Source: Paraburkholderia fungorum (GTDB taxonomy: Bacteria; Pseudomonadota; Gammaproteobacteria; Burkholderiales; Burkholderiaceae). From it: a DNA stretch of 64,000 nucleotides. Under the pieces are notes generated by a model. That model made no database searches and was not told where the DNA came from. It saw only the letters and a list, made by a program, of their open reading frames with translations. A program made the position numbers and the translations under genes. Below, one piece after another: positions 47,639 to 59,329 of the stretch; the stretch's first letter is position 1; each line of letters begins with the position of its first letter. The stretch lies in contig NZ_FNKP01000001.1 in assembly GCF_900099835.1 (NCBI RefSeq), positions 186,001 to 250,000 of the forward strand, in the 5' to 3' direction.

Positions 47639-48526
47639 TCAGGCCGTCGCATTACCGCGCAGGCGCACAAGAATCCCTTCTAGCGCATCCAGATCGCCGA
47701 AGTCCACTAGCACCTGTCCACGTCCGCGTCGGCCCAGTTTGATCTTCACCGTTGCCGACAACAAATCCGACAACTCCTCTTCCAGCCGACGCGTATCGCG
47801 CCCGCCATCCTGATTCGCACGCGCCTTGACCGCCGGCGCGGCTTTGGTCGTCGTCGTCACCAACTTTTCGGTTTCGCGCACCGACATGCGCTTATTAACC
47901 ACCTGGTTAGCCAGCGTGATCTGCGTCGCGGCATCGACGGCGAGAAGCGCGCGCGCGTGCCCCATGTCCAGATCGCCAGCCAGCAGCATGGTCTGCACGG
48001 GCGACGCCAGATTGAGCAGACGCAGCAGATTCGACACTGCGCTACGTGACCGGCCAACCGACTCCGCCGCCTGTTCGTGCGTGAAATTGAACTCGTCGAG
48101 CAAGCGCTGGATGCCCTGCGCCTCTTCCAGAGGATTCAGATCTTCGCGCTGAATATTCTCAATCAGCGCCATCGCGGCGGCAGCCTGGTCCGGCACATCC
48201 TTCACCAGCACAGGCACTTCGTCGAGACCCGCCAGACGTGCGGCCCGGAAACGCCGCTCGCCCGCGATGATTTCGTACTTGTCCGCGGAAATGGGACGCA
48301 CAAGAATCGGCTGCATCAACCCCTGCGCGCGGATGCTGGCGGCCAGCTCCTGCAGCGCGCCTTCATCCATGCGCGTACGCGGCTGATACTTACCCGCCTG
48401 CATCTTGCTGAGCGGCAACACGTTCGGTGCGCCCTCGATCGTCGCCGTCTCGGTGATGTCGGCCGTGCCACCCAACAGCGCCTCCAGACCCCGGCCCAAT
48501 CCCTTCTTTCTTGCTACTGCGTTCAT
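47639..48526 (-). CDS. parB: Chromosome partition protein ParB
   Basis: A 295-residue CTP-dependent DNA clamp that loads at parS and spreads. The ParB/Srx domain carries the CTP-binding GERRFRAARLAG near residue 92 and ENIQREDLNPLEEAQG. The helix-turn-helix FTHEQAAESVGRSRSAVSN near 153 reads parS. The C-terminal dimer domain (RLEEELSDLLSATVKIK) follows. It lies 18 bases after parA. Two perfect parS sites lie within 4 kb, at 50632 and 52186. Confidence 0.98.
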   Translation of the reverse strand: MNAVARKKGLGRGLEALLGGTADITETATIEGAPNVLPLSKMQAGKYQPRTRMDEGALQELAASIRAQGLMQPILVRPISADKYEIIAGERRFRAARLAGLDEVPVLVKDVPDQAAAAMALIENIQREDLNPLEEAQGIQRLLDEFNFTHEQAAESVGRSRSAVSNLLRLLNLASPVQTMLLAGDLDMGHARALLAVDAATQITLANQVVNKRMSVRETEKLVTTTTKAAPAVKARANQDGGRDTRRLEEELSDLLSATVKIKLGRRGRGQVLVDFGDLDALEGILVRLRGNATA

Positions 48527-48544: not shown

Positions 48545-49336
48545 TTAGGACGCCTGGGGCGCGTCATTGAAGGCGCGCACCCGTTCAATCATTTCCGCGC
48601 CGAACTGCACATACGCCTGCGCACCACGTGAAGCCTTATCGAACACCACTCCCGGCAAGCCATAGCTGGGTGCTTCGGCGAGACGCACGTTGCGCGGGAT
48701 TACCGCGTCGAAAACCTTGTCGCCGAAATGCTCTTTCAGTTGATCCGAAACCTGCTGCTGCAACGTGATACGCGGATCGAACATCACGCGCAACAAACCG
48801 ATGACCTTGAGGTCACGGTTCAGGTTTGCATGCACCTGCTTGATCGTGTTGACGAGGTCGGACAGACCTTCGAGCGCAAAGTACTCGCACTGCATCGGGA
48901 TGACGACGCCATGCGCGGCGCACAGGCCGTTGAGCGTGAGCAGCGACAAAGCCGGCGGGCAGTCGATCAGCACGAAGTCGTATTCGGTTTCGACCGCCGC
49001 GAGTGCGATCTTCAGTTGCCGCTCACGGTTCTGCACGCTGACGAGTTCAACCTCCGCACCCGCGAGCTCCCGGTTCGCCGGCAGCACGTCGTACCCCACG
49101 GCTTCCGGACGGATTCGCGCATTGGCGACCGACACGCCATCTACGAGCACCTCGTAGACAGTATTCGCACACGCTGCCTTGTCGATGCCGCTGCCCATCG
49201 TGGCGTTGCCCTGCGGGTCCAGGTCGATGAGAAGGACTCGCTGTCCCTGCGCTGCCAAACTCGCGGCCAGATTCACTGTGGTCGTCGTCTTGCCGACGCC
49301 GCCTTTCTGGTTCGCAACGCAGAAGATTTTTGCCAT
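48545..49336 (-). CDS. parA: Chromosome partition ATPase ParA
   Basis: Deviant Walker ATPase of 263 residues that moves ParB-parS complexes. ANQKGGVGKTTTTVNLAASL (Walker A with signature Lys) is at residues 8-27, LIDLDPQGNAT near 37, and DFVLIDCPPALSLLTLNGL near 115. The lack of an N-terminal DNA-binding extension marks it as the chromosomal (Soj) type. Third gene of mnmG-rsmG-parA-parB. Confidence 0.98.
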   Translation of the reverse strand: MAKIFCVANQKGGVGKTTTTVNLAASLAAQGQRVLLIDLDPQGNATMGSGIDKAACANTVYEVLVDGVSVANARIRPEAVGYDVLPANRELAGAEVELVSVQNRERQLKIALAAVETEYDFVLIDCPPALSLLTLNGLCAAHGVVIPMQCEYFALEGLSDLVNTIKQVHANLNRDLKVIGLLRVMFDPRITLQQQVSDQLKEHFGDKVFDAVIPRNVRLAEAPSYGLPGVVFDKASRGAQAYVQFGAEMIERVRAFNDAPQAS

Positions 49337-49423: not shown

Positions 49424-50110
49424 TTAATTGTTGCCGTCTACCAGAACCTTGATCAGGTGGCGCTCGGCGTCAAGAGACGGCACGTTCAGCCGGATGATCT
49501 GTTCCACGTGAGAACCTGCCGGCAGACGCTCAATCTCGCCGTCCGGGCGCACTCCCTTCATGGCCCAGATCGCGCCCTGCTCCGCAACCAGATGACGGGC
49601 CAGTGTAACGAAATCCGACAGTTCTGCGAATGCGCGCGAGACAATTACGTCGAACTTTGCAGGTACTTCGGCGCCCGGCTTCAAACTTTCAACCCGGCCG
49701 GTCACCACGGACAGATTCGTCAGGCCCAACTCGGCCTTTGCCTGAGCCTGAAACGCCGTCTTCTTATGAACGATGTCGTTCGTGGTAATAGTCCATTCGG
49801 ACAGGACGATCGCCAGCACGATGCCCGGCATACCGCCGCCTGACCCCACGTCGAGAACCGACGACGGGCCGAGCGGCGCGAGGTGCGGCACGATCGAAAG
49901 CGAATCGAGAATGTGCTGGATCAACATTTGCCGCGGATCGCGGATCGCCGTCAGGTTGTAGACGGCGTTCCACTTCGACAATAACGCGACGTAGTCCAGC
50001 AGCTTGTTGAATTGGGCGTCGCTCAATTCGAGGCCGAGTTCGCTGACGCCGTCTGCAAGCAACGACGCCAACTCCTGCGAGGCTGTGCTCCCCTTCTGAC
50101 CCACCATCAT
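49424..50110 (-). CDS. rsmG: 16S rRNA (guanine527-N7)-methyltransferase RsmG
   Basis: A 228-residue SAM-dependent enzyme (formerly GidB) that methylates G527 of 16S rRNA. Family segments are [20 protein letters not shown] near residue 45, the SAM motif [17 protein letters not shown] near 85 and VVTGRVESL near 132. Its ATG overlaps the mnmG stop codon (ATGA), so translation is coupled. ATG 50110 or the next ATG at 50107 may be used. Confidence 0.97.
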
Positions 50111-52065
50111 TGCGTCACCGGCGTGTTGTCGGAGCCCGGTACGGCAGGTTTCGTCGAACGACGTCCCAAACCGCGCTTCAGATGAACCATCAGCAGCGAA
50201 ATCGCGGCGGGCGTGATGCCGGAAATCCGCGACGCTTGGCCAATAGTTTCCGGGCGGAATTGCGTTAACTTCTGACGCGCCTCGAAGGACAGGCCTCTGA
50301 CTTCCGCGTAGTCCAGCCCTTCCGGCAAACGCGTGCTTTCATGAGCTTCATTGCGCTCGATTTCACCAGCTTGACGATCGATATATCCCTGATACTTGAT
50401 ACCGATCTCGATCTGCTCCTTGATCTGAGCGAGCAATACTTCGTCTTCGGCGAGTACTTCGGGTGCTGCGCATTCGCCGGCGCGCAGTCCGCACACGCCG
50501 TCGTAGCTGACGCCCGGACGGCGCAGCAGATCCGCGAGACTATATTCGTGATCGATCGGCTTGCCGAGAAGCGCCGTGGCTTCGTCGGCTGGCAATGTCT
50601 TGGGATTCACCCACGTGGTACGCAGACGCTCTGTTTCACGTGAAACAGCGTCACGTTTACGACTGAATGCATCCCAACGGATGTCGTCGACTACGCCAAG
50701 CTCGCGACCAATCTCGGTCAGCCTCATATCGGCGTTATCTTCCCGCAGGCTCAAGCGATATTCCGCACGGCTGGTAAACATCCGATACGGTTCGGACACG
50801 CCGCGTGTCACGAGGTCATCAACCAACACGCCCAGATAAGCCTGGTCGCGGCGCGGACACCATGCGTCTTTGCCTTGCACAAACAAACCGGCGTTGATAC
50901 CAGCCAGCAGACCTTGCGCCGCCGCTTCTTCGTACCCGGTCGTACCGTTGATCTGGCCTGCGAAGAACAACCCGTTAATCACCTTGGTTTCCAGCGAAGC
51001 CTTCAATCCACGCGGATCGAAATAGTCGTATTCGATCGCATAGCCCGGTCGCAAGATGTGCGCGTGTTCCAAACCGCGCATCGAACGGACAAGCTCCAAC
51101 TGCACATCAAACGGCAAGCTCGTCGAGATGCCGTTCGGGTAGAACTCATTGGTCGTCAGCCCTTCCGGCTCGAGGAAAATCTGATGCGATTCTTTCGACG
51201 CAAACCGGTGAATCTTGTCTTCGATCGACGGGCAATAGCGCGGCCCCACCCCTTCGATCACGCCGGTATACATCGGCGACCGGTCGAGTCCACCACGAAT
51301 AATGTCGTGGGTACGCTCGTTTGTGTGCGTAACCCAGCACGGCACTTGTCGCGGATGTTGTTCGACACGACCTAGGAACGAGAACACCGGCACCGGATCC
51401 AGGTCACCCGGCTGCTCTTCGAGTTGGGAAAAGTCGATCGTACGGCCGTCAATACGCGGCGGCGTACCCGTCTTGAGGCGACCCTGGGGCAGCTTCAATT
51501 CCTTCAGACGCGCTGACAACGACACCGCCGCCGGATCGCCGGCACGGCCACCGGTGTAGTTGTTCAAGCCCACGTGAATCTTGCCGTCGAGGAAAGTCCC
51601 CGCCGTCAGCACAACCGCGCGAGCGCGGAAGCGAATGCCCACCTGCGTGACGGCACCGACGACGCGGTCACCCTCAACCATCAGATCATCAACAGCCTGC
51701 TGGAACAGCCAAAGATTCGGCTGATTTTCCAGCCGATGCCGGATCGCCTGCTTATACAGCAGACGGTCAGCCTGAGCGCGCGTCGCCCGAACTGCCGGGC
51801 CTTTCGACGAATTCAGGATACGGAACTGGATCCCGCCTTCATCCGTCGCGGCTGCCATCGCACCGCCAAGCGCGTCGACTTCCTTAACCAGATGGCCTTT
51901 ACCAATGCCGCCGATGGACGGATTGCAGCTCATCTGGCCGAGGGTTTCGATGTTGTGGGTCAGCAGGAGCGTGGTGTTGCCCATGCGTGCCGAGGCCAAC
52001 GCGGCTTCGGTGCCGGCATGACCGCCGCCGACGACGATTACGTCAAATTCTGTGGGAAAGAGCAT
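50107..52065 (-). CDS. mnmG: tRNA uridine-5-carboxymethylaminomethyl modification enzyme MnmG
   Basis: FAD protein of 652 residues (GidA) that, with MnmE, modifies the wobble uridine of several tRNAs. The FAD-binding motif [20 protein letters not shown] lies near the start. Signatures [15 protein letters not shown] near 270 and [17 protein letters not shown] near 365 are present. ATG 52065 was chosen ([14 protein letters not shown]); an ATG-like start 12 bases further is possible. Codons for AVSRETER near residues 473-480 contain a perfect parS site. Confidence 0.98.
50632..50647. promoter_or_regulatory. parS: parS site inside mnmG
   Basis: TGTTTCACGTGAAACA, an exact match to the bacterial parS consensus, within a perfect 18-base palindrome (flanking C and G also pair). 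It lies in the mnmG coding sequence, about 2.1 kb from the parB start. It should be a ParB loading site for the origin region. Confidence 0.93.
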
Positions 52066-52173
52066 TGCGGATCTCACGCCAGATCGTCGCGTGAGCCTTT
52101 CAAAGGAAGAGGTATGGGCGAATTATAACGGGTTCGGTTTAGGCCCGAATTTCGTCCGAATGACCAGGTCGTA

Positions 52174-52207
52174 AAAAAAGCGGTGTGTTTCACGTGAAAC
52201 ACACCGC
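52174..52207 (-). terminator. Terminator whose stem is a parS palindrome
   Basis: A 28-base perfect palindrome (52180-52207) with a core parS is followed, on the minus strand, by a run of seven T (52173-52179 region). It lies about 33 bases past the stop of the livF gene at 52240 and should end that transcript before mnmG. The fold has GCGGTGTG/CACACCGC as outer stem. Confidence 0.8.
52186..52201. promoter_or_regulatory. parS: parS site between mnmG and livF
   Basis: A second exact TGTTTCACGTGAAACA, centred in a longer 28-base palindrome and about 120 bases upstream of the mnmG start codon. The surrounding sequence doubles as a rho-independent terminator. Confidence 0.95.
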
Positions 52208-52239
52208 TTCGAAGTGCGAAGAACAGAAAGGCGCGTGCT

Positions 52240-53004
52240 TTAGGCCACTTTTTTGGTTAGACCCAGATATGTCTCAATCACACGAGGATTCTTTGCCAAG
52301 TCCGCCGCCGCCCCTTCCAGCGCCAATTCTCCGGTTTCAAGTACGTACCCATAGTCGGAGATTTGCAACGCGGCCCGCGCGTTCTGTTCGATCAGCAGTG
52401 TCGCAACGCCCGTCTGCCGCAACGCGCTGATGATGTGGAAAATCTCCTTCACGATCAGCGGCGCTAAGCCCAAGCTCGGCTCGTCCAGCATCAGCAGATC
52501 GGGTTTGCCCATGAGTGCGCGCCCCACTGCCAGCATTTGCCGCTCACCGCCGGAAAGCGTGCCGGCTGCCTGCTTGCGGCGCTCCTTCAACCGTGGGAAA
52601 AGCGTAAACACCGGTTCGAGTTGGTCGAGAAAATTGCGCTCCCCTGCCCGCTTTCGCCGATACGCTCCAAGGACCAGATTATCCTCAACCGTCATCGAGG
52701 CGAATAACTCGCGCTTTTCCGGCACCAGACACATGCCGCGCGCGACCCGCTTTTCAACCGGCACCGCGCTCACGTCCTCATCCCGATAAACGACGGCGCC
52801 TTTTGCATGACCCGTGCTCGGCAATGCGCCCATGATTGCGTTCAGCAACGTGGACTTACCGGCGCCGTTCGGGCCGATCACCGAGACAATCTGTCCTGCC
52901 CGCACTTTGATCGCCGCGCCATGCAGCGCCTCAACCTTGCCGTATCGGACGGACAACCCGTTAACGTCGAGAATCGGCGCAACAACATTCATTGTGTTCT
53001 CCAT
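52240..53004 (-). CDS. livF: Liv-type ABC transporter ATP-binding protein (LivF type), cluster 1
   Basis: ATPase of about 254 residues. Walker A VIGPNGAGKSTLLNAIMG near residue 42, signature GTLSGGERQMLAVGRAL near 145 and Walker B LLMLDEPSLGLAP place it in the LivF branch. ATG 53004 overlaps the TGA of the LivM-LivG gene (TGATG); GTG 53007 and ATG 52992 are other possible starts. Last gene of the operon starting at 57218; a parS-containing terminator follows. Confidence 0.93.
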   Translation of the reverse strand: MENTMNVVAPILDVNGLSVRYGKVEALHGAAIKVRAGQIVSVIGPNGAGKSTLLNAIMGALPSTGHAKGAVVYRDEDVSAVPVEKRVARGMCLVPEKRELFASMTVEDNLVLGAYRRKRAGERNFLDQLEPVFTLFPRLKERRKQAAGTLSGGERQMLAVGRALMGKPDLLMLDEPSLGLAPLIVKEIFHIISALRQTGVATLLIEQNARAALQISDYGYVLETGELALEGAAADLAKNPRVIETYLGLTKKVA

Positions 53005-54788
53005 CACTCCACCCCGCCCAGATACGCTTCGAGCACAGCCGGGTCTTGTTGCACATCCTGCGGCAATCCTTCGGCGATCCGCGTACCGAACTCCATCACC
53101 ACCAGCCGATCGGTGAGATTCATCACGAAATCCATATCGTGCTCGACCAGCAGCACGCTCATCCCTTCCGCTTTCAACCGACGCAGCAAGTCCGCGAGTT
53201 GCAGCTTTTCCTGATAGCGCAAACCTGCGGCTGGCTCATCGAGTAGCAGCAGCGTCGGATCGCAGCACAATGCGCGGGCGATTTCGAGAATCCGCTGCTG
53301 ACCCAAAGCCAGGCTGCCAGCCTCGTCATACATATGCTGCTCAAGTCCGACGCGGCGAATCTGGCGTGCCGCTTCCGCCATCAGACGTGCTTCTTCCGCA
53401 CCATTCAGCCGCGCCACGCTCCGCCAAACCCCGGCTTGGCCACGCAGATGCGCGCCAATCGCGACGTTCTCCAGCACGGTCATGCCCGGCAGCAACTTGA
53501 CGTGCTGGAACGTGCGGCCGATACCGCGCTTGACGATTTCACGTGAACTCAGCGAATCGATACGCTCGCCACGGAACGTGATCTCGCCGCTCGTCGCCTG
53601 AAGCACGCCGGTCACGAGATTAAAGGTGGTGGATTTGCCCGCGCCGTTCGGCCCGATCAGACCGATGATCTGCCCCGCTTTCACTTCGAAGCTGACGTCG
53701 TTCACCGCGACCAGACCGCCAAACTGCTTGCGCGCCTTGTTCACCGTCAATAGGCTTTCACCGCTGGCGGGCTTGCTGCGCTGCGGCAACGGCTCTGCGT
53801 GATCGGCCAGATGCGCGCGTGGACCACGCGGGAAAAATCGCGCGACGAACGGCCAGACGCCCTGTCGTGCGTACTGCAGCAACAGCACCATCAAGATGCC
53901 GAACACGATGACCTCGAAGTTGCCGTTCTCGCCGAGCAGCTTCGGCAGCAGTGTCTGCAGATAGTCCTGCAATACGGTCAGAATCGCCGCGCCGAGGACC
54001 GCGCCCCACACATGCGACACCCCGCCTACCACCGCCATGAACAGAAATTCGATGCCATGGTTCAGACCAAACGGCGTCGGATTCACCGCACGCTGCAAAT
54101 GCGCATACAGGAAGCCCGAAATCGACGCCAGCACTGCCGCATAAACGAAGATCACCACGCGCATCCAGCCGGTGTTGACGCCCATCGCCTCGGCCATCAT
54201 GCCGCCGCCGCGCAGCGCGCGAATCGCCCGCCCCGGTCGACTATTAAGCAAATTTTGAACAGAAATAACCGCCCCGAGGACGACCACCCAGATCAGGTAA
54301 TAGATATGGCGACCGGATTCCAGGTTGATGCCGAACACATTCAACACTGGAATTCCGTTAATGCCGTCGTACTTGCCGAGCATGTCCAGATTGCCGAACA
54401 GGTAGAACAGCGCGAGGCCCCACGCGATCGTGCCAAGCGGCAGAAAGTGGCCCGACAGACGCATCGTGACGAGGCCGAGCATCAGCGCGATCAAGGCCGT
54501 TACCACCACGCCCGCGATCAACGCGAGCCACGGCGAAACGCCGTAAGTGGTCGTCAGATAGGCGGTCGCATAGGCACCGATGCCGACGAACGCTGCCTGC
54601 CCGAAACTCGTCATTCCGCCGATCCCGGTCAACAGCACCAGCCCGATCGCGACGATCGAATACAGCCCGATGTAGTTGAGCAGCGTCACCCAATACTCGG
54701 GGACGTGAATCGGCTGCGGCAACACCGGCAGCGCGAACAGCACCACAAGGAACAACCAGAAGAACCTGTTTTGCATGATCCGTTTCAT
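53004..54788 (-). CDS. LivM permease-LivG ATPase fusion, cluster 1
   Basis: A 594-residue fusion of a membrane permease and its ATPase. Residues 1 to about 320 are LivM-like, with some nine helices and GIGGMTSFGQAAFVGIGAYA near 55 and ALRGGGMMAEAMGVN, the ATPase-contact loop. After a linker (HAEPLPQRSKPASGES) residues about 345-594 are LivG-like: Walker A GLIGPNGAGKSTTFNLVTG, RTFQHVKLLPGMTV, signature SLALGQQRILEIARAL, LLLLDEPAAGL. Both halves look intact. ATG 54788; it follows livH by 4 bases. Fusion fixes a 1:1 ratio of this permease and ATPase. Confidence 0.92.
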   Translation of the reverse strand: MKRIMQNRFFWLFLVVLFALPVLPQPIHVPEYWVTLLNYIGLYSIVAIGLVLLTGIGGMTSFGQAAFVGIGAYATAYLTTTYGVSPWLALIAGVVVTALIALMLGLVTMRLSGHFLPLGTIAWGLALFYLFGNLDMLGKYDGINGIPVLNVFGINLESGRHIYYLIWVVVLGAVISVQNLLNSRPGRAIRALRGGGMMAEAMGVNTGWMRVVIFVYAAVLASISGFLYAHLQRAVNPTPFGLNHGIEFLFMAVVGGVSHVWGAVLGAAILTVLQDYLQTLLPKLLGENGNFEVIVFGILMVLLLQYARQGVWPFVARFFPRGPRAHLADHAEPLPQRSKPASGESLLTVNKARKQFGGLVAVNDVSFEVKAGQIIGLIGPNGAGKSTTFNLVTGVLQATSGEITFRGERIDSLSSREIVKRGIGRTFQHVKLLPGMTVLENVAIGAHLRGQAGVWRSVARLNGAEEARLMAEAARQIRRVGLEQHMYDEAGSLALGQQRILEIARALCCDPTLLLLDEPAAGLRYQEKLQLADLLRRLKAEGMSVLLVEHDMDFVMNLTDRLVVMEFGTRIAEGLPQDVQQDPAVLEAYLGGVE

Positions 54789-59021: not shown

Positions 59022-59060
59022 AATAAAAAGCGCTGTTGGATATCAATCCAACAGCGCTTT
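59022..59060 (-). terminator. Terminator of Liv cluster 2
   Basis: AAAGCGCTGTTGGAT (59027-59041) and its exact complement (59046-59060) form a 15-base stem with loop ATCA. On the minus strand CTTTTTATTTG follows. It is about 270 bases past the livM stop; the sequence between shows no gene. Confidence 0.88.
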
Positions 59061-59329
59061 CGTCTGGGCACTTAGTGCCTCATTGTCTCCTCGTTCTCCA
59101 CCTGCAAATTCGGTGCTGCGTCAGAACTGCATGAAGATTAAACGACGACCCTCCAGGCTACAACTAGCAATTACCCTAGTGGTGCACTGCGGCACCGAAT
59201 TGGGGCACGTTTATGCCTGTTGCGCCCGCTTCCGTTTGATACTTCCGCGCAAGCGGTTTGCAGTCTACCTCAGCTGAATGTCTGAAACCAATACATCGGA
59301 TTCCAGATCAATTGTGCGACGCATCGTAT

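Follow-up and report, generated by a model that had tools for sequence, protein, structure and literature searches.

A chromosomal parS site that probably lies within the intrinsic terminator of a liv operon in Paraburkholderia fungorum

Can one short palindrome serve both as a DNA site on which the partition protein ParB is loaded and as the RNA stem that ends transcription of the gene before it? The question is raised by the gap between livF and mnmG in Paraburkholderia fungorum, where an exact parS sequence is flanked by complementary arms and, on one strand, by a run of T residues. An earlier note, made from the letters of this DNA, proposed that a single element is both a ParB loading site and a transcription terminator that protects mnmG. 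The dual assignment is well supported by comparison among related genomes, namely by covariation of the arms, by the spacing from livF and by an unextended second parS within mnmG; the terminator, as these comparisons indicate, would be that of livF rather than a device for mnmG.

An exact parS site within a long palindrome

The window, by which we mean the whole stretch of 64,000 nucleotides that was analysed, contains parB, parA, rsmG, mnmG, livF and further liv-type genes in this order, all on the minus strand (Table 1). The name livF is putative and follows from an ABC transporter ATPase in a liv-type cluster; parA is likewise named from its Pfam AAA_31 domain and its place ahead of parB.

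Table 1. Positions of the parS-associated features and neighbouring genes in the window
Feature	Position	Strand	Remarks
parS, exact chromosomal consensus TGTTTCACGTGAAACA	52186..52201		0 mismatches; upper stem and ACGT loop of the hairpin
32-bp perfect palindrome AAGCGGTG-parS-CACCGCTT	52178..52209		8-bp arm on each side of parS; covaries among relatives
RNA hairpin of the putative intrinsic terminator	52177..52210	-	15 pairs including one G-U; 4-nt loop
T7 tract after the stem (putative terminator U tract)	52173..52179	-	A7 on the plus strand
Putative -10 box of the mnmG promoter, TATAAT	52122..52127	-	downstream of the terminator; 35/35 same-genus genomes
Second exact parS, within mnmG	50632..50647		internal control; long arms and T run absent
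livF	52240..53007	-	ORF; Pfam ABC_tran; liv-type cluster; putative source of the terminated transcript
mnmG (gidA)	50107..52077	-	ORF and Pfam
parA	48545..49336	-	Pfam AAA_31
parB	47639..48526	-	Pfam ParB_N, HTH_ParB, ParB_C

The chromosomal parS consensus is TGTTTCACGTGAAACA, as given in PMC5450999. A scan of the 8.58-Mb genome found only two exact copies of it, the next-best match having 2 mismatches, and dinucleotide shuffles of the window gave a mean of 0.25 chance matches at up to 3 mismatches. Both copies lie 1.3-4.6 kb from parAB. The site thus has the properties of the parS class: an exact consensus, few copies placed beside parAB, and a position conserved among relatives. The Burkholderia parS sequence and its binding by ParB were already known (PMC5450999, PMC4948915). 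An imperfect parS-like palindrome, GATTTCACGTGAACTC, is also present at 53535-53550, within the ORF upstream of livF.

In the intergenic copy, the exact consensus stands at the centre of a perfect palindrome, as had been proposed, although the palindrome is 32 rather than 28 bp long and occupies 52178-52209, a few bases away from the 52174-52207 first assigned to it. No other perfect inverted repeat in the window, with loops of 0-12 nt allowed, has arms as long as its 16 nt, and a separate repeat search, which misses some inverted repeats, also ranks the parS palindrome top, with 20 pairs. The earlier note was right about two features of the minus strand, a T run after the palindrome and a position just after the livF stop. 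Read along that strand, the livF stop (52240) is followed after 29 nt by the hairpin (52210-52177), by seven T residues (52179-52173), two of which also close the 32-bp palindrome so that tract and stem end overlap, and then by TATAAT (52127-52122) and mnmG.

The minus-strand RNA has a predicted folding energy of -25.4 kcal/mol (z -5.7), which was equalled by 0 of 200 shuffles. The plus-strand RNA folds too (-28.0 kcal/mol), but no T run follows its stem, so that only the minus strand has the polarity of a terminator. The element therefore shows what is looked for in an intrinsic terminator: a stable GC-containing hairpin, a U tract on the sense strand only, and a short, steady gap from the upstream stop. 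A consensus terminator scan of the window did not include the parS hairpin among its calls, probably because T residues are counted only after the longest stem and the stem here pairs into the T run. The runner-up among inverted repeats, with 15-nt arms at 59027-59060, is also terminator-like on the minus strand (59026-59061), with 15 perfect pairs and a 4-nt loop; it lies in a second liv cluster and has no parS.

Conservation, arm covariation and the tie to livF

Conservation was followed in 35 genomes of the same genus, that of P. fungorum included, which had not been selected for T runs. Each of the 35 has exactly two parS sites, one at +1437 of mnmG and one upstream of it, 110-147 nt from the start of the gene. 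The two copies differ consistently. At the livF-side copy the palindrome is at least 24 bp long in 31/35 genomes, with lengths of 32 bp (11 genomes), 28 (8), 30 (6), 26 (4), 16 (3) and 34, 24 and 18 (one each), and a T run of four or more is found in 35/35 and of five in 34/35. At the mnmG-internal copy the palindrome measures 14-18 bp and a T run of four or more occurs in 0/35. Two of the three 16-bp cases, G010 and G033, have only livF relics and the third, L069, has a register shift, while in the 18-bp case, L071, a G-U pair breaks the count. Median hairpin energies were -23.7 kcal/mol (weakest -14.7) for the livF-side copy in the 33 genomes with livF, defined as tblastn identity of 80% or more with livF ending beside parS, and -12.2 kcal/mol for the mnmG-internal copy in all 35. 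TATAAT stands ahead of mnmG in every one of these genomes, 63-86 bp from parS (about 66 bp from the parS centre in the window).

The arms were compared in 78 unique elements that have both a T run and livF (80% or more identical) beside them, identical elements having been removed; 33 belong to the unselected genomes of the genus, and a T-run search supplied the genomes of the other 45. In 76 of them parS is the centre of the palindrome, which measures 18-36 bp. Of the 456 cells at arm positions 9-14 in these 76 elements, 422 are Watson-Crick pairs. In 5000 shuffles of the arms the mean was 357 and the maximum 376, but the shuffles overstate independence because the element sequences are related. 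The safer part of the covariation evidence is the variety of pair types, of which there are 14 against a shuffle maximum of 12. The arms themselves include AGCGGTG/CACCGCT, AGCGGCG/CGCCGCT, AGCGGCT/AGCCGCT and AGCGCCG/CGGCGCT, and further AGCGTCG/CGACGCT, AACGGCA/TGCCGTT and GATGGTG/CACCATT. As a sliding control, the correct register gave a Watson-Crick fraction of 0.93 and other registers 0.20-0.43, except for 0.81 at register -3, which was computed from fewer cells and probably reflects a GGCGGC repeat.

Two elements pair in an unusual way. In L342 (G132) the left arm pairs through a duplicated half-parS, so that the stem is in a shifted register with an intact parS beside it; L069 (G024) has the same duplicated half-site and shift, with one mismatch, and its parS is also intact. 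We also considered strand-specific wobble pairs as proof of selection at the RNA level. The arm cells contain 31 G-U pairs in the sense RNA and one A-C, but 27 of the 31 fall at arm position 14, beside the T run, and without that position the ratio is 4 to 1; this argument was rejected.

The position of the element follows livF. From the livF stop to the parS centre the distance is 36-99 nt, with a median of 40, in 77 of the 78 elements (L053 has no usable stop position), whereas the mnmG start lies 102-594 nt beyond the parS centre in the same set. In 21 unique elements the mnmG start is more than 200 nt away, and in all 21 the parS centre is 38-40 nt past the livF stop. Because this gap is nearly fixed even where mnmG is far, the element reads as the terminator of livF. 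The earlier proposal that it protects mnmG is accordingly narrowed, insulation of the mnmG promoter being a consequence in genomes where that promoter is close.

Natural experiments separate the two parts of the element. Only fragments of livF are left in G010, G033, G103, G137 and G155, and in G240 the frame is broken, as judged by tblastn and ORF listing. Hairpin energies in these six genomes are, in the same order, -8.0, -7.2, -4.6, -6.3, -9.3 and -10.3 kcal/mol, compared with a median of -22.6 and a weakest value of -14.6 among the 78 livF-linked elements. All six retain the exact 16-bp parS and the T run, four of them having come from the T-run search. Since parS is kept while the stem has decayed, parS needs no terminator, and the comparison suggests that the core would persist through ParB binding and the arms through termination. 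Four genomes run against the pattern. G190 has a complete livF-like ORF (76% identical), yet a weak, bulged hairpin of -11.0 kcal/mol; the hairpin of G226 is weak as well (-12.2), with livF identities of 94% and 71% in different searches. G341 shows no intact livF frame in the ORF listing, yet has a strong stem (-19.8). In G064, outside the clade, a livF-like gene (75%) ends 13 nt before the parS centre, which has neither arms nor T run.

A composite reading and its rivals

We consider it highly likely, with a probability of about 0.88, that the element is a composite parS-terminator, a ParB loading site lying within the intrinsic terminator of the liv operon. The central 16 bp would be one of the chromosome's two ParB loading sites; together with the GC-rich complementary arms and the U tract, the same 16 bp would make the terminator hairpin of the upstream operon, of which livF is the last gene. 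RNA polymerase leaving livF would copy through parS, the parS RNA would fold back as the upper hairpin with the arms completing the stem, and polymerase would be released on the U tract, about 45 bp ahead of the conserved TATAAT of the putative mnmG promoter. Since polymerase must copy parS before the hairpin forms, the terminator cannot spare parS from livF transcription. What it would protect is the DNA further on, and with it the mnmG promoter where this is close.

A ParB dimer on parS would meet polymerase before termination. ParB is a sliding CTP clamp loaded at parS (PMC10681803). It would load here and slide off, leaving parS blocked only transiently, so that both uses could share one palindrome with little conflict. 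In single-molecule experiments with purified Bacillus subtilis ParB and Escherichia coli polymerase, processivity was unaffected and no roadblock was seen; transcription slowed at 200 nM ParB only, by about 20%, owing to increased pausing (PMC10681803). The lack of a roadblock in vitro makes one shared palindrome plausible without strong conflict.

Sharing of a palindrome could nonetheless go further, with ParB occupancy altering termination and liv transcription altering ParB loading, so that nutrient uptake is linked to partition. A terminating polymerase would pause atop parS, the mnmG TATAAT is only some 66 bp from the parS centre, Pseudomonas aeruginosa ParB represses genes beside the intergenic parS3 and parS4 (PMC5521831), and polymerase pausing in vitro rose with 200 nM ParB (PMC10681803). 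We nevertheless regard such functional coupling as unlikely. In the same in vitro work processivity held, no roadblock arose and condensates formed during transcription (PMC10681803); parS persists with a decayed stem in the six genomes with relic or broken livF; and the spacing of 63-86 bp between parS and TATAAT varies.

The perfect dyad symmetry of at least 24 bp in 31/35 genomes would also be expected had the palindrome been extended for ParB or for DNA structure, as a larger operator or a cruciform, with an incidental T run. This is quite improbable, since the other parS of the same chromosome never exceeds an 18-bp palindrome in any of the 35 genomes, the T run is one-sided and lies downstream of livF, loss of livF goes with decay of the arms but not of parS, and the spacing follows livF. 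The opposite simplification, a terminator whose parS match is fortuitous and unused by ParB, is the least probable of the readings weighed: the exact sequence occurs just twice in 8.58 Mb, each time beside parAB, and B. cenocepacia chromosome 1 has the same parS, for which ParB binding was measured in vitro (PMC5450999). The core is moreover the same in elements with different arms and remains exact in those with a decayed hairpin, an identity that is partly by construction, as the search pattern fixed 14 of 16 bases, but all 35 genomes of the genus have it there. Small RNAs derived from 3'-UTRs commonly end at intrinsic terminators, and the hairpin could serve mainly as the 3' end of a stable small RNA from the livF 3'-UTR, and not to insulate. 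With a spacer of 29 nt from livF to the stem, short for such an RNA, this is very improbable as the main role; it is compatible with the terminator reading, the two not being mutually exclusive.

The composite parS-terminator can be set beside several known systems. It resembles the chromosomal parS of ParABS systems in its exact 16-bp consensus, its nearness to parAB and its two conserved copies per genome, and differs from an ordinary one in that one copy has covarying arms and a one-sided T run, with which the other copy dispenses. It resembles intrinsic (Rho-independent) terminators in its GC-containing stem, 4-nt loop and U tract, 29 nt after a stop and on the correct strand; unlike in other such terminators, the upper stem and loop would be fixed by ParB recognition, while the lower arms drift and compensate. 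Intergenic parS sites near promoters are likewise found in P. aeruginosa (parS3 and parS4), where ParB represses the adjacent genes and the word "terminator", in the text consulted, concerns constructs and vectors (PMC5521831). ParB repression near intergenic parS is thus known (PMC5521831; reviewed in PMC7022226, whose text as consulted lacks the word "terminator").

By analogy, the precedent is the terminator formed by DNA uptake sequences in Neisseria and Pasteurellaceae (PMC1852404), where a sequence recognised at the DNA level has likewise been co-opted as a terminator stem. Uptake sequences, as described there, are present in hundreds of copies or more, and each stem takes two complementary copies (PMC1852404); parS here, unlike them, is itself a palindrome, occurs twice in the genome and is a loading site of the segregation machinery. 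As the stem is one parS palindrome rather than two complementary high-copy units, the element is analogous to that class and not a member of it. Among the listed titles and abstract openings of open-licence literature that pairs parS with terminators, we found no description of parS as a terminator stem.

The element would be a clear instance of two separable selections acting on a single short palindrome, for DNA recognition by a protein in the core and for RNA folding in the arms, and the natural experiments described above separate the one from the other. The debated coexistence of transcription and ParB loading becomes simply testable at a parS-terminator.

Occurrence in the family and in other bacteria

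Within the Burkholderiaceae, parS followed by T5 within 3-12 nt was found in 125 of 299 genomes: 37/39 of the window's genus (g1), 37/40 of g34, 36/40 of g36, 3/3 of g38 and 12/177 of the remainder, with none in g27, g48 or g49. In 28 genomes sampled from 15 other genera of the family, parS is present in 27. One stretch was read per genome, which showed the upstream site in 16 of the 27 and the mnmG-internal site only in the other 11. Of these 16 upstream sites, L299 is a two-sided palindrome of 32 bp; at L301 and L302 (g32) the stem has decayed but a T run is present; and at the remaining 13, with palindromes of 14-24 bp, no combination of stem and T run points toward mnmG. As judged from these sequences, the putative livF-linked parS-terminator is a trait of g1, g34, g36 and g38 in this sample, which are probably Paraburkholderia, Caballeronia, Burkholderia and a close genus.

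Other arrangements were seen along the way. In most of the g36 genomes of loci L085-L112, an extra few hundred bases lie between the parS-terminator and mnmG. L304 (G089, g35) has a tandem repeat of parS upstream of mnmG, in near-identical contexts about 234 bp apart (C7:112, 346, 580, and again 1047). In L082 (G041, of a different family in the order), mnmG is preceded by two parS sites 60 bp apart, both within longer imperfect hairpins of -24.0 and -21.1 kcal/mol, the first followed by a T-rich tract.

For the Pseudomonadota, we compared parS followed by T5 with its mirror control, parS with A5. The former was found in 43 and the latter in 27 of 398 genomes, and by genus the counts were 25/212 and 21/212. 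On these counts a T run alone near parS means little, and a general rule of parS plus T run across the phylum was largely rejected; AT-rich flanks may account for most of the T runs found beside parS beyond the Burkholderia clade. Complementarity of the arms gives the clearer signal; it was read in 30 loci from the 43 T5 genomes and in 30 loci of the control (27 genomes, some places twice). Palindromes of at least 22 bp with two or more G/C in the arm were found outside the Burkholderiaceae at L122, L126, L130 (with a variant parS core), L132 and L135 among the 30 T-run loci, against 0 of 30 control loci, of which L151 and L154 have extended palindromes with no more than one G/C in the arm. 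Within the Pseudomonadota, the apparent merger of parS and terminator is clade-specific, with scattered further cases.

A scan of named genomes for parS with T6 covered at least 117 stretches (80 by name) and gave 133 strand-sites, with one more dropped at a locus edge. Thirteen loci were taken as Burkholderiaceae, from a livF or mnmG identity of at least 72%, and removed, which left 119 strand-sites in 103 loci among the matches listed. Four or more extra Watson-Crick pairs flank parS at 48 of the 102 listed strand-sites with a full 16-bp palindrome, compared with a mean of 3.25 and a maximum of 11 in 5000 shuffles; with two or more G/C required, the count is 25 of 102, compared with a mean of 0.76 and a maximum of 5. 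These figures count two-sided elements twice and come from a sample chosen for T6, with mechanically called ORFs. Where more than 400 nt of sequence was available upstream, 26 of the 43 listed sites with a palindrome of at least 24 bp are preceded within 70 nt by a stop codon on the same strand, versus 13 of 66 others.

A merger of parS with a terminator-like stem thus appears to recur in very different bacteria, which suggests that terminator surveys and parS maps are best read together. At L207, in Selenomonas ruminantium, a 46-bp palindrome has T runs on both sides and lies between convergent ORFs that end 27 and 25 nt away; at L232, in Leuconostoc inhae, a two-sided palindrome of 36 bp also lies between convergent ORFs. 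One could see a recurrent design here, in which ParB loading sites were incorporated into terminators independently in several phyla, in some cases as two-sided elements between convergent genes, since the loading site then sits where polymerase traffic ends, operon activity (liv or other) gates ParB loading, and ParB-raised pausing tightens termination. We hold this to be unlikely. Further extended cases of parS with T6 occur in Phascolarctobacterium (L209, L236), Acinetobacter (L194, L221), Bifidobacterium (L228), Brevinema (L240) and Psychrobacter (L175). Two-sided parS palindromes of 32-46 bp, flanked by A and T runs, were observed at L207, L232, L135, L178, L202, L277 and L299, and by their sequences are candidate bidirectional terminators.
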